This document shows, piece after piece, positions 23,601 to 28,507 of a DNA stretch of 35,871 nt. The position numbers and the translations under genes were made by a program. Under the pieces are notes generated by a model. That model was not told the DNA's origin, ran no database searches, and saw only the letters and a program-made list of their open reading frames with translations. The number at the start of each line of letters is the position of its first letter. Position 1 is the first letter of the stretch. Origin of the DNA: Coleofasciculaceae cyanobacterium (lineage in GTDB: Bacteria > Cyanobacteriota > Cyanobacteriia > Cyanobacteriales > Xenococcaceae). Where the stretch lies: NCBI GenBank assembly GCA_036703275.1, contig DATNPK010000067.1:1-35871 (forward strand), given 5' to 3'.

Positions 23601-26213
23601 ATGACCTCCAAATTTAGACAGCGTTGTTTGCTGTTGTTTATTTTTATCATAGTGGGATTGTCGATTGGCTTATTCTCCAGTACCTACCAAATGTCTTCGG
23701 TTTTCGCTACAGCTTCGATTGTTGAGGGGGTGATGGAAAATAATACTGCTGAAGAACTTGAAGCACAGGGAAAATATTTTTATTCAATCGGTCAGTTTGA
23801 ACAAGCAGCAGATTTGTGGCAACAGGCAGTTCGGATATATCCTCATCAAGATACTATAAGCCAAGTAAGAGTACTGAGTAACTTAGCTTTAGCTCATAGT
23901 CAGCTAAATAATTGGTCACAAGCTACGGAAAATATTGCTAATAGTTTAGATCTATTGCGTCGAGATGCTCGCCTGGCATTCGATGAGCGAGTTAGTGCTA
24001 AGGCACAAATATTAAACAACCAGGGAATTTTACACCTAAGCGAGGGAAAAGCAGAAGAGGCGATCGCTCTTTGGTCAGAAGCCAAAGATAATTATCAACA
24101 AGCAGGGGATGAGCTGGGAGTAATTAGAACTTCGATCAATCAAGCCAGTGCGTTTAAACAGCTGGGATTTTATCGTCGCGCGCTCAAAACTTTAACTGAG
24201 GTAGAAAGTAGTTTAGCTCAACAGCCCGATTCTTTGATTAAGGTAGCAGGACTTAGAAGCTACGGTGATATTTTACGACTGGTAGGGGAGGTAGAGCGAT
24301 CGCAAAAGATTTTAGAGCAAAGTTTAACTATTGCCTCTGGTTTAGAGTCTTCTAGTGAACAAAGCAAGATTCTTTTGGTATTAGGTAACACCTACAAAGC
24401 CAGTAATCCAGACCGAGCTTTGAAGCTATATCATCGAGGGTTAGAAACTTGTCAAAAGCAACAAAATTGTCTGCAAACTGATTTGCCGCTACAGATTTAT
24501 CTCGCCCAATTAAATCTCTTGTTAGACACCTCCTCCGAGCAAGAGGCTAGCAAATTAATTCCCACGATTAAACGACAATTCGCTTATTTGCCAGCTAATC
24601 GAGCGAATATTGACCGAAAAATTAATTTTGCTCATAGTTTGGTCGAGCTATACAAGTCCAAAACTCAGGGTCAAAAAAAATTAGCAATTCCTAGCAAATC
24701 AGAAATAGAGCAGTTTTTGTCAGAGACAGTTAATCAAGCTAAAGTAATTAACTATCAAAAAGCCCAGTCATACAGTCTAGGTTTACAGGGGCAGATTCAA
24801 GAAGAATTACAAGATTGGCACAATGCCCAGCAGTATACGGAGAAGGCATTGATTTTAGCTCAAAGTATTAACGCACCAGAAGTTAGTTATCTTTGGCAAT
24901 GGCAACTAGGCAGAATTGATCGGGCTTTGAGAGATCGCCCAGGTGCGATCGCTCATTATTCTCAGGCAGTAGAGTTGCTCAAGTCTTTAAGTCGAGACTT
25001 AGTAGCCATCGATCCAGATGTACAGTATTCTTTTCGCGACAGTGTTGAGCCAGTCTATCGAGGATTAGTTAGCCTGTTACTAGAAACTGATGGAGAAAGA
25101 AGTCAAGCTAACTTAGAAAGAGCCAGAGAGGTGATTGAATCCTTACAGGTAGCCGAATTAAATAACTTTTTTCGCGAAGCTTGTTTAGATGCCAAAGTCG
25201 TCAAAATAGATAACGTAGATCGCCAAGCAGCAGTAATTTATCCGATTATCTTAAGCGATCGCTTAGAAGTAATTCTCAGTCTACCGAATAAACCTCTTCA
25301 GCATTACTCGACTAACATTTCTCAAGCGCAGTTAGAAGTAATTATCGAGCAGTTTCGCCAAAACATAGTTGTGCGTAGTCGCCGTAATTTCTACCGTCCA
25401 GCCCGCAAGCTATACGATTTAATCATTCGCCCTGCTCTAGATGATCTTGCTATCAGCCAAATTAAAACCTTGGTCTTTATTCCTGATGGAGCGTTTCGTA
25501 ATGTCCCTTTAAGCGCACTGTATGATGGTAAACACTTTCTAATTGAAGATTACAGCATCGCCCTCACTCCTGGGCTACAGTTACTTAATCCTCGTCCTTT
25601 AGAACAGAAGCAGCTAAAAACAATTGCTGCGGGATTAACTAAAAGTATCAAAGGTTTCTCTGCTTTAGATTACGTTGATTCTGAGCTGGCAGAAATTGAA
25701 TCACGAGTTAATAGTGTTGTTCTACTCAATCAAAATTTCACTAGCGAGGCACTCAAAAAAGAAATCCAATTCTCTGACTATCCGATCGTACATATTGCGA
25801 CTCATGGACAGTTTAGCTCTTCAATCGAAGATACATTTCTTTTAGCTTGGGATGAGCGAATTAAAATTAATGAGTTAGATAACATCTTACAAACTAGAAA
25901 TCCTGGTCAAGAAAATGCGCTCGAGCTATTAGTTTTGAGTGCTTGTGAAACAGCTACAGGGGATGAGCGAGCTGCATTAGGATTAGCAGGAATGGCAGTG
26001 CGGGCAGGAGCAAAAAGCACCCTGGCAACTCTTTGGTCGATTAATGACCGCGCCACGGCTGAACTAATGAGTGATTTTTATCGAGAACTATCAGAGCGGC
26101 ATTTACCTAAAGCCGAAGCAGTACGCCAAGCACAGTTATCTTTGTTGCATAATCGCTGGTATAGACATCCATTCTACTGGGCTTCCTATGTGCTACTAGG
26201 TAATTGGCTATAG
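23601..26213 (+). CDS. TPR-CHAT caspase-like peptidase
   Basis: This is an 870-residue protein. The N-terminus has a hydrophobic segment (about 8-28), a signal peptide or anchor. Tetratricopeptide-type helical repeats fill about 50-470 (for example AEELEAQGKYFYSIGQFEQA and ALAHSQLNNWSQATENI). The CHAT domain occupies the last third: FIPDGAFRNVPLSAL, HIATHGQF with catalytic H735, LLVLSACETATGDERA with catalytic C782, then GLAGMAVRAGAKSTLATLW and the closing HPFYWASYVLLGNW. The His-Cys dyad is intact, so proteolytic activity is plausible; the target is unknown. Together with the DUF928 and CHASE2 genes it forms an envelope-facing group. Confidence 0.9.
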   Translation: MTSKFRQRCLLLFIFIIVGLSIGLFSSTYQMSSVFATASIVEGVMENNTAEELEAQGKYFYSIGQFEQAADLWQQAVRIYPHQDTISQVRVLSNLALAHSQLNNWSQATENIANSLDLLRRDARLAFDERVSAKAQILNNQGILHLSEGKAEEAIALWSEAKDNYQQAGDELGVIRTSINQASAFKQLGFYRRALKTLTEVESSLAQQPDSLIKVAGLRSYGDILRLVGEVERSQKILEQSLTIASGLESSSEQSKILLVLGNTYKASNPDRALKLYHRGLETCQKQQNCLQTDLPLQIYLAQLNLLLDTSSEQEASKLIPTIKRQFAYLPANRANIDRKINFAHSLVELYKSKTQGQKKLAIPSKSEIEQFLSETVNQAKVINYQKAQSYSLGLQGQIQEELQDWHNAQQYTEKALILAQSINAPEVSYLWQWQLGRIDRALRDRPGAIAHYSQAVELLKSLSRDLVAIDPDVQYSFRDSVEPVYRGLVSLLLETDGERSQANLERAREVIESLQVAELNNFFREACLDAKVVKIDNVDRQAAVIYPIILSDRLEVILSLPNKPLQHYSTNISQAQLEVIIEQFRQNIVVRSRRNFYRPARKLYDLIIRPALDDLAISQIKTLVFIPDGAFRNVPLSALYDGKHFLIEDYSIALTPGLQLLNPRPLEQKQLKTIAAGLTKSIKGFSALDYVDSELAEIESRVNSVVLLNQNFTSEALKKEIQFSDYPIVHIATHGQFSSSIEDTFLLAWDERIKINELDNILQTRNPGQENALELLVLSACETATGDERAALGLAGMAVRAGAKSTLATLWSINDRATAELMSDFYRELSERHLPKAEAVRQAQLSLLHNRWYRHPFYWASYVLLGNWL

Positions 26214-26274
26214 TTTTTCAAGTTTTTAGCCGCAGCAAAAATATGTTGCTCGACTGGTTACAATTTTAAAGATT

Positions 26275-26307
26275 AGAAATTGCGCCTCTTACCATATCTG
26301 CGATCGC
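26275..26307. repeat. 33-bp direct repeat, outer copy of chlD 3' end
   Basis: This segment matches 26489-26521 at 32 of 33 bases. The other copy is the real 3' coding end of chlD. The two copies frame a 181-base insert carrying the hicAB relic. If this outer copy were still joined to chlD, the frame would read GAISNL and stop, a normal-looking end. Confidence 0.85.
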
Positions 26308-26322
26308 CTTAACTTATCTAAA

Positions 26323-26476
26323 CTAAAGCTTCGATGTAGGTTGAAGTAGTTTTGGTTCGGGAATTTCATAACCTTCTAATTTCAATCCTTCCAAATGAAA
26401 GATTGCTTCTTCCATTTGTTATAGCTAAATACCAGCCATTCTTTTCAACTAGCTTAATTATCTCTTTTACTTTCAT
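26323..26476 (-). pseudogene. Deleted hicA-hicB relic
   Basis: On the minus strand an ATG at 26476 encodes MKVKEIIKLVEKNGWYLAIT, a typical HicA toxin start, before the family match breaks off and the frame stops at 26366. An overlapping frame from 26415 to 26323 encodes MEEAIFHLEGLKLEGYEIPE and P, matching the middle and end of HicB antitoxins (EAI.HLEGL...GxxIPEP), then a divergent tail to TAG. This looks like a hicA-hicB operon with the middle deleted, which fused the hicA 5' part to the hicB 3' part. Gene order (A then B) and sequence differ from the broken pair at 541-1004, so this is an independent locus. Confidence 0.7.
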
Positions 26477-26479
26477 CAA

Positions 26480-28507
26480 CTACATCTGAGAAATTGCGCC
26501 TCTTGCCATATCTGCGATCGCTCGATCGGTTGCTTTAGGTAAATGATAATATGTTCCGCCAGCTTGTTTAGCTAGTTCTTTGGCAAAACCAGTGGAGACA
26601 AAACGGCTTTCTGTGTCAATTACCAGCAATTTCATGCCCACAGCTCGTATTTTGCCCGCAATATTCAGTAATTCCTCTTTGATATTTGGTTTTTCTGCTC
26701 CTGCTTCGGGAGTCTCCCCCAGGGAACGGGATAAGGGAATATTACCTCGACCATCGGTAATCGCCACAATTACTACCTGTCCAATATCTCCCGACATTTG
26801 GGCATTAATGCCCACGTTTACCGCTTGGGTTAAACCATGAGACAGGGGAGAACCACCACCACAGGGAAGGCTTTCTAATCTACCTTTTGCCATCGTAATC
26901 GAACGGGTAGGAGGCAGTAATACATCAGCGCGTTCCCCACGGAAGGGAATCAAAGAAATCTGATCGCGGTTTTCATAAGCTTCGGTTAATAGACGCATTA
27001 CTGCACCTTTAGCCGACTGCATTCTATTTAGTGCCATTGAACCAGAAGCATCAACTACAAAGATAATTAACGAACCAGCCTTCCGCGCCATGCGTTTAGA
27101 ACGTAGATCGCTTTGCTCAATAATGACATTACGACCTGGGTTACGTTCTCTTCTGGCTTTTTGATAGGGTGCAGCATTACGCAAGGTGGCATCTACCGCA
27201 ATTCTTTTAACTTTCCCTTTGGGAATCATCGGCTTGATATACCGTCCGCGATCCTCGGAATAAATTAAACTCCGCGCCCCAGATTTACCCTGACGCTGCA
27301 TAGTTTGAGCAAAGGTAAGTACTTCTGGATCTAGTACTACCCCTTCAATATCAAAGACAAACTCGTCAGGAATTGCCGGAGGCTCTTGTTCTGCTTCTTG
27401 TTCTTCATCCTCTTCCTCCGGCTCGTCTTCATCTCGATCTTGGTTGGGTTCTTCGTCTGGCTGTTGCTGCGGTGGTGGCGGTGGCGGTTGGGGTGCGTCT
27501 TCTGGTGGGGCTTCGATGGTAGTAGCGCGAGGAATAATAACTAACTCGACTGCTTTACGTAAATCATCCGCAATAACGTTGTCTCGACCATCTAAAGCTG
27601 CACAGGCTTTTGCTACCCTGACCGCAAATAGTTCGGCTCTGTGTCCCTCTACTGTTCCCCTGACTGCTTCCTGTACTAAGTACAGAATTTGAGCGTGGGT
27701 TATTTTGACTTCCTTAAGCCATTCCCGCGCCAAGATAATATCAGTCTTAAGGCTATCGAGATCTCCTTCGTAAGCACTGACAAATGTTTGGGGAGAGTTA
27801 GTAAAATCGATTACTTGGTTAACCGCTTCAACCCTTTGTTCTAAAGACAATACAGCGTCAGCCGAAAGTGCGATCGCAATTCGATCTAAAAGATGTTCCC
27901 GCAACACTCCTTCTTCGGGGTTATAGGTAGCAATTAAAATCGGCTTACAGGGATGCTGAAAGCTAATTCCTTCTCGTTCAATGACGTTACGTCCATCGGT
28001 TAAAACTGTTAGAAGTTGATTGGCAATTTGGTCATCTAGCAGGTTAATTTCATCAATATATAAAACTCCACGATGCGCATGAGCGAGCAATCCTGGTTGA
28101 AATATTGGTTCACCTCGCTTAACTGATTCTTCGACATCTACCGAACCCAACAGCCGATCTTCTGTTACCCCTAGCGGTATCTGGACAAAAGGAGCGGGGA
28201 CAATCTGAGTCGGAATATTTTCTCTGGCGGTATCGCCGTATTTAGCTACAGTATCGTCATCCCAATTCTGAGGCTTAGCTGGATCACAATTGTACAGAGA
28301 ACCATTAATAATTTCAATCGGTGGTAACAGGCTATAGATCGCTCGCGCCATCACCGATTTAGCCGTTCCCCGACGACCAGCGATCGCCACACCGCCCAAT
28401 TCAGGATCGATCGCCGCCAATAGTAAAGCCAGCTTAATTGTTTCTTGTCCGACAACGGCAGTCAGGGGAAAGTTAAAATTCTTGGGTACAGTAGTTACAG
28501 CAGACAT
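26480..28507 (-). CDS. chlD: Magnesium chelatase subunit D (ChlD)
   Basis: This is the 675-residue subunit of the ChlH-ChlD-ChlI complex that inserts Mg2+ into protoporphyrin IX, the first committed step to chlorophyll. An AAA+ module fills about 15-325, with Walker A GRRGTAKS (44-51) and [10 protein letters not shown] (148-157). The proline/acidic linker spans about 334-378 (a PPPPPP run, then an E/D-rich run). A C-terminal integrin I (VWA) domain begins at about 478 with the MIDAS motif DASGS (486-490). The last residues read ARGAISQM. The final three codons lie beyond a 33-bp repeat and appear to come from inserted DNA. aroC lies 117 bases upstream on the same strand. Confidence 0.95.
26489..26521. 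repeat. 33-bp direct repeat, inner copy inside chlD
   Basis: This is the coding copy of the repeat at 26275-26307 and specifies the ChlD C-terminal residues before SQM. Similarity ends abruptly on both sides, at 26488 and 26522. Confidence 0.85.

Follow-up and report, generated by a model that had tools for sequence, protein, structure and literature searches.

Introduction

Integrative elements target the 3′ ends of genes, among them tRNA genes, icd, guaA and rlmH. Insertion with long target duplication is a mode that Nobusato et al. in 2000 and Furuta et al. in 2010 are said to have described. To our knowledge, the movement of toxin-antitoxin and restriction-modification units in the absence of a transposase is not a settled matter.

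According to passages of two papers, restriction-modification units that are unlinked to a mobile element insert with long and variable target duplications, on the order of 100 bp (PMC3874152; PMC3031569), and a passage of a third names a Helicobacter pylori example of such insertion (PMC4978471). In Microcystis aeruginosa PCC 7806, an excerpt of PMC7935541 places a type II ParE/ParD-like pair between identical 152-bp direct repeats with an inner inverted repeat.

Here we describe a cyanobacterial locus at the 3′ end of chlD. The stretch of DNA analysed (the window, 35,871 nucleotides) is contig C67 of the 5.62-Mb genome of a Pleurocapsa-like cyanobacterium. We consider it likely that a stand-alone hicAB unit entered the DNA behind chlD, that a long stretch of the target was duplicated in the process, and that the unit was subsequently shortened in the window.

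Results

A fused hicAB remnant lies between two copies of the chlD end

The chlD product of the window carries the domains AAA_lid_2, Mg_chelatase and VWA_2. A repeat search of the window found the 3′ end of the gene a second time, 214 bp on from the first, as a direct repeat of 33 nt with 97% (32/33) identity (Table 1). For a chlD-end copy within 4 kb downstream of the window chlD, E = 9e-12; together with the 32/33 match, this rules out a chance repeat. The duplicated end starts with the octamer GCGATCGC, which occurs 48 times in the whole window vs. 0.2 expected from base composition.

Table 1. Features of the chlD locus in the window.
Feature	Position	Strand	Remarks
chlD (magnesium chelatase subunit D)	26480..28507	-	675 aa, ends GAISQM-stop; ORF and translation
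Inner copy of the 33-bp direct repeat, within chlD	26489..26521	-	starts with octamer GCGATCGC
hicA start remnant, ATG at 26476, plus three preceding bases	26409..26479	-	
hicB end remnant, through its TAG	26318..26415	-	tblastn; alignment with G006 and G021
Outer non-coding chlD-end copy	26266..26307	-	would read AIADMVRGAISNL-stop in one frame; includes the 33-bp repeat 26275-26307
CHAT/TPR gene, convergent to chlD; marks the outer edge of the putative insertion	23601..26213	+	CHAT domain E = 2e-61; synteny; tree

The initial annotation of the window had reported this duplication and had read the DNA between the copies as the beginning of hicA joined to the end of hicB. Both readings hold, the latter by tblastn over 24 downstream stretches with the HicA and HicB proteins of Pleurocapsa sp. 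CCALA 161 (G006): the hicA remnant matches over 22 residues at 82% (E = 3e-8) and the hicB remnant over 24 residues at 92% (E = 3e-9). As DNA, the hicA remnant agrees with G006 over 71 bp at 88.7%. The two remnants are fused in different reading frames. Counted on the sequences, 169 bp separate the hicA ATG from the repeat in the window, compared with 408 bp in G006; the net loss in the window is thus about 239 bp. Complete HicA and HicB domains, both present in G006, are absent from the window, which holds the fused remnant only: the hicA piece gave HicA_toxin in Pfam at E = 0.019, below the cut-off, and one unrelated weak match at 0.075, while the hicB piece, queried with its first residue wrong, gave no Pfam match.

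Translation confirmed that the frame of the outer copy ends SNL-stop and that the present chlD ends SQM-stop, as first proposed. The outer copy matches the chlD end of G019 at 40/42 bases.

Relatives carry intact, empty and rearranged versions of the site

In G006, a relative within the genus, the order is chlD, complete hicA and hicB (Pfam E = 5.2e-22 and 9.1e-12, respectively), a further copy of the chlD end (+422 to +464) and an orthologous CHAT gene. Taken with its surrounding bases, the G006 repeat measures 47 bp (46/47, 97.9%), and the hicB stop lies 10 nt from the copy in both G006 and the window. There is no recombinase gene in the G006 insert; the unit consists of hicAB alone, contrary to the expectation of a larger element bearing hicAB plus other genes. 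A member of another genus of the family, G021, has chlD followed by hicAB and a degenerate chlD-end copy at 79-82%, a weak match with E = 5.6e-5 in one search and 0.005 in another.

By tblastn, hicAB is intact behind chlD in G006 and G021, present as a relic in the window, and found in no other of the 24 family loci (window included); the stretch covered was up to 3 kb behind chlD, with only 247 bp in G012, 699 bp in G021 and 852 bp in G024. A DNA search of 27 family genomes agrees with this result (G005, G014 and G026 are without a parsed chlD end).

Pleurocapsales LEGE 10410 (G004) has an empty site, with a single chlD end, no hicAB, and the orthologous CHAT gene following chlD after 68 bp. 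The window's CHAT gene aligns behind chlD from +267 in the window, from +68 in G004 and from +895 in G006, there beyond hicAB. In a CHAT tree of 24 sequences, the window, G012, G001, G002, G003, G004 and G006 fall in one group (95/88), which rules out that the CHAT genes of the window and G006 are different paralogues. By eye, the 18-base flank on the outside of the G006 outer copy agrees at 15/18 positions with the bases directly behind the G002 chlD; this flank is too short for the alignment comparison at E < 1e-8.

With an intact unit in G006, a second carrier in G021 and the empty site of G004, the early proposal of a small hicAB unit that came to lie behind chlD with a long end duplication and later decayed is upheld. 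The empty site it called for was thus found, but the G004 chlD ends SQM and not SNL as predicted.

The rpoB tree makes G003 the sister of G006. In G003, contig C169 carries chlD, while an orphan chlD end (AQM-stop) lies beside the CHAT gene on contig C78. This orphan end (L203) is about 330 bp past the CHAT stop, its flank is 95% and 89% like that of G006, and it adjoins what appear by eye to be rpsO and a PAM68-like gene. Such an orphan end beside CHAT would result from a break within a G006-like arrangement, and the chlD end would then be a rearrangement breakpoint. A hicA remnant of G003 (L162, 80% over 30 residues) sits elsewhere, in a different context. G003 also has an extra 27-bp weak match to the chlD of other genomes at +156 (E = 3e-5), which we take as common GCGATCGC context. 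Behind the chlD of G015 (L047) there is a degenerate copy but hicAB is absent; by eye only, the G015 insert is MITE-like.

The SQM ending is found in relatives in which no hicAB was detected

The inserted DNA had been thought to supply the SQM ending of the present chlD. Among the 11 genus relatives with a chlD end, the QM ending occurs in G002, G003, G004, G006, G009, G011 and G012; the others read SNL (G007 and G001), SV (Waterburya agarophytonicola KI4, G008) and SL (G010). In the family outside the genus, SNL was found in 12/12 chlD ends read. No hicAB was found behind the SQM-ending chlD of G003, G004, G011 and G012, with 3.0, 2.9, 3.0 and only 0.25 kb covered, respectively; the insert therefore need not have supplied that ending, and this part of the proposal is not supported. 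The sister of the window is G012, a Myxosarcina MAG, on both the rpoB tree (100/100; G010 absent) and the chlD tree (100/99; G005 absent), and its chlD also ends SQM, with no hicAB in the 247 bp present. The SQM ending probably reflects shared ancestry, and the outer SNL is either a frozen older end or one that came from outside.

Other cargo lies behind chlD

Among 80 chlD loci, 2 were too short and 78 had enough downstream sequence. A downstream copy of part of the last 120 bases of chlD is present in 7/78, namely: L059 (= G006), L067 (= G021), L068 (= G015), L074, L126, L127 and L134, of which L074 (18 bp, twice) and L127 (19 bp) are weak. In L085, L101 and L111 (3/78), the downstream matches come from inside chlD and not from its end. 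Within the family, the window, G006, G015, G016 and G021 carry chlD-end copies (5 of 24 parsed loci; L055/G014 was dropped as its chlD end was not parsed).

The longest copies accompany a different kind of cargo. Aliterella atlantica (L126) has a 101-bp chlD-end copy at 91% and a BanI-like restriction-modification pair at +152 to +2983 behind chlD, and L134 has a 107-bp copy at 90% and its pair at +174 to +3031. Between the chlD ends of L126 lie genes for a type II restriction enzyme, recognised by PADLOC (E = 2e-80) and by Pfam as RE_BanI (E = 1e-146), and for a methyltransferase (PADLOC E = 9e-55), with no recombinase among these two long genes; the pair in L134 is homologous, its enzyme being 85% identical to that of L126. 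The corresponding sites are empty in L119 and L124, where alignment of the flanking gene begins at +6 and +36 from chlD, respectively. Among the 80 loci, a BanI-like enzyme was found behind chlD in L126 and L134 only, and relatives of the Aliterella restriction enzyme occur in 51/388 genomes of the order.

G016 has a 90-bp copy (80%) at +2857, beyond an EamA gene and a gene that is MocR-like by eye; the copied part of chlD falls about 45 bp short of the stop codon. In Geminocystis GBBB08 (L074), the two 18-bp copies follow one another at +2635 and +3442. The sequences that flank each copy on both sides are similar, and small genes, one of them HNH-like by eye, lie between the copies.

chlD and hicA loci compared with controls

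Within 4 kb, 7/68 chlD genes had a copy of their end vs. 10/479 other genes (two-sided p = 0.002), where 13 of the 80 chlD loci are not included and the chlD count takes in orthologous matches (L126/L134) as well as weak ones (L127, 19 bp; L074, 18 bp); 3/10 of the control matches span the full 120 bases, like tandem paralogues. Without the window the enrichment is modest (6/67, one-sided p = 0.008).

Flanking direct repeats with E < 1e-6 were present at 8/30 hicA-like loci vs. 20/568 random places in other loci, a control drawn from other genomes whose geometry only roughly follows that of the hicA test. It should be noted that G021 at chlD scores as a miss in this test (E = 4e-6), that L151 looks CRISPR-like and that L154, L155 and L168 may be dispersed repeats. 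When G006 and the CRISPR-like case are left out, 6/28 hicA-like loci remain (one-sided p = 0.0007). At other places, repeats flanking hicA measure 61 bp in G020 and 75 bp in G035. At L148 (G016), a duplicated gene end, glycosidase-like by eye, flanks hicAB on both sides (479 bp, 94%).

Explanations for the duplicated chlD end

In the reading that we favour, a hicAB toxin-antitoxin unit would have entered directly downstream of chlD, accompanied by a second copy of the gene's last 40-odd bases. The polarity of the event would be such that chlD stays whole on the inner side, and the orphan copy of its end would mark the outer edge. The window's unit would then have lost about 239 bp, after which neither complete protein can be made. 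Since the two chlD-end copies constitute homology, the unit could later be lost, or be carried to the chlD locus of another cell, by ordinary recombination between them.

A local tandem duplication without foreign DNA, which the initial annotation had named as one finding that would overturn its proposal, would also leave the chlD end duplicated in direct orientation. However, the DNA between the copies is hicAB, complete in G006, and hicAB was not found behind chlD in the 10 other genus relatives (247 bp only in G012); the intact and empty sites of G006 and G004 rule this account out, and we assign it next to no probability. Site-specific integration, which the long duplication had brought to mind, is unlikely. 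Here the chlD 3′ end would be the attachment site for a recombinase supplied from elsewhere, and the copy would be the rebuilt gene end. That different cargo sits at one and the same gene end is in keeping with this, as are the paired 18-bp copies of Geminocystis and the copied stretch itself, which starts at the same GCGATCGC and runs to the chlD stop in G006, and roughly so in the window, G021 and G015. Nevertheless, neither the G006 unit nor the two long genes of the Aliterella insert include a recombinase, and copy length ranges over 18-107 bp (hicAB: 33 bp in the window, 47 bp in G006; L126 and L134: 101-107 bp), with the G016 copy stopping ahead of the stop codon. Furthermore, GCGATCGC is so abundant in the window that a copy starting at one says little.

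Age and history of the insertion

Between G006 and G021, agreement at fourfold sites is 0.39 in chlD, 0.38 (6/16) in hicA and 0.36 (8/22) in hicB, and total identity is 0.795, 0.798 and 0.757, respectively. hicAB has thus diverged as much as chlD, as if inherited with it. In a tree of HicA plus HicB from 20 loci, the chlD-borne pairs of G006 and G021 group as sisters (moderate support, 89/83). As far as sequence divergence can date it, these results favour a long residence at chlD. The copies give a conflicting signal, as the outer ones look too intact for old non-coding DNA: outer and inner copy differ at 1/33 positions in the window and at 1/47 in G006. By a rough calculation from fourfold sites, the outer copy of the window has fewer differences than expected of non-coding DNA since the nearest split (P = 0.017), and so has that of G006 (P = 0.0002 from the split with G003, or 0.0009 from that with G002). 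Gene conversion between the copies, or a later arrival by homologous recombination, would reconcile the two signals.

Upstream of the last 150 bp, the window's chlD is closest to G012 in most 150-bp steps of identity, and no long donor tract is seen. In the last 150 bp it is equally close to G002, G011 and G012 (0.91 each), with G006 at 0.90, so that a short donor tract is possible.

The favoured insertion of a stand-alone unit admits two histories. It may well be, although we stop short of calling it probable, that one ancient insertion in the ancestor of both genera was inherited and mostly lost, with the outer SNL as the frozen older end and gene conversion keeping the copies alike. Such a history accommodates the matching divergence of hicAB and chlD, the uniform SNL outside the genus, the orthologous CHAT neighbour and the 10-nt spacing that the window and G006 have in common, and the orphan chlD end that G003 retains beside CHAT. 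It demands many independent losses, given intact units at chlD in 2/24 loci examined, and repeated gene conversion for identities of 32/33 and 46/47. We tentatively entertain a second history, in which the unit arose once and the window, its own end formerly SNL, acquired chlD end and hicAB as a ready-made block from a QM-ending relative, by a crossover within the chlD end. A single crossover bringing a QM-type block into an SNL host would be expected to leave QM on the inside and SNL on the outside; SNL does occur within the genus, the outer copies look young, the G006 and G021 pairs are sisters, and a short donor tract could lie in the last 150 bp. The SQM ending of the sister G012 speaks against this history, as do the lack of a long donor tract and the mostly highest upstream identity to G012.

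Discussion

Sequenced relatives present this insertion in intact, decayed, empty and rearranged form, and two kinds of cargo lie behind one gene. It thereby becomes possible to test how the events were ordered and what homologous recombination contributed. These intact, empty and other-cargo versions suggest that the chlD spot has been used repeatedly. While the mode of insertion is known, chlD as a repeated target is the new element here; repeated use of the chlD end was not found in the open-licence literature searched.

It is conceivable, although we rather doubt it, that the chlD 3′ end serves as a general landing pad in cyanobacteria. Given the conservation of the chlD end among species, addiction modules equipped with a copy, such as hicAB and BanI-type restriction-modification units, could pass between distant strains and re-land by host recombination alone. 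If so, a duplicated gene end would act as an integrase-free attachment site, with chlD always left intact.

As with integrative elements at 3′ gene ends, the target end is rebuilt and a second copy stands at the far border. Unlike in such elements, no recombinase is present in the G006 unit or among the two long genes of L126, and the copies vary in length (18-107 bp overall), while the hicAB cases start at or near GCGATCGC. The Microcystis pair is likewise a cyanobacterial type II toxin-antitoxin system between direct repeats, just downstream of another gene; according to the same excerpt, its first repeat starts 14 bp behind the stop codon and is not a copy of a coding end, which sets it apart from the window (PMC7935541).

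By analogy, the window fits best as a toxin-antitoxin example of insertion with long target duplication, which the passages cited above describe for restriction-modification systems. Compared with those accounts, the window's unit differs in being a toxin-antitoxin system, in its shorter hicAB copies (33-47 bp) and in that one gene end is struck repeatedly. It resembles them as a stand-alone selfish unit without a mobility gene, flanked by direct repeats derived from the target, and in the empty single-copy sites of relatives, G004 for hicAB and L119 and L124 for the Aliterella pair. The Aliterella case is itself a restriction-modification unit, and its copies measure 101-107 bp, where those passages give an order of 100 bp.
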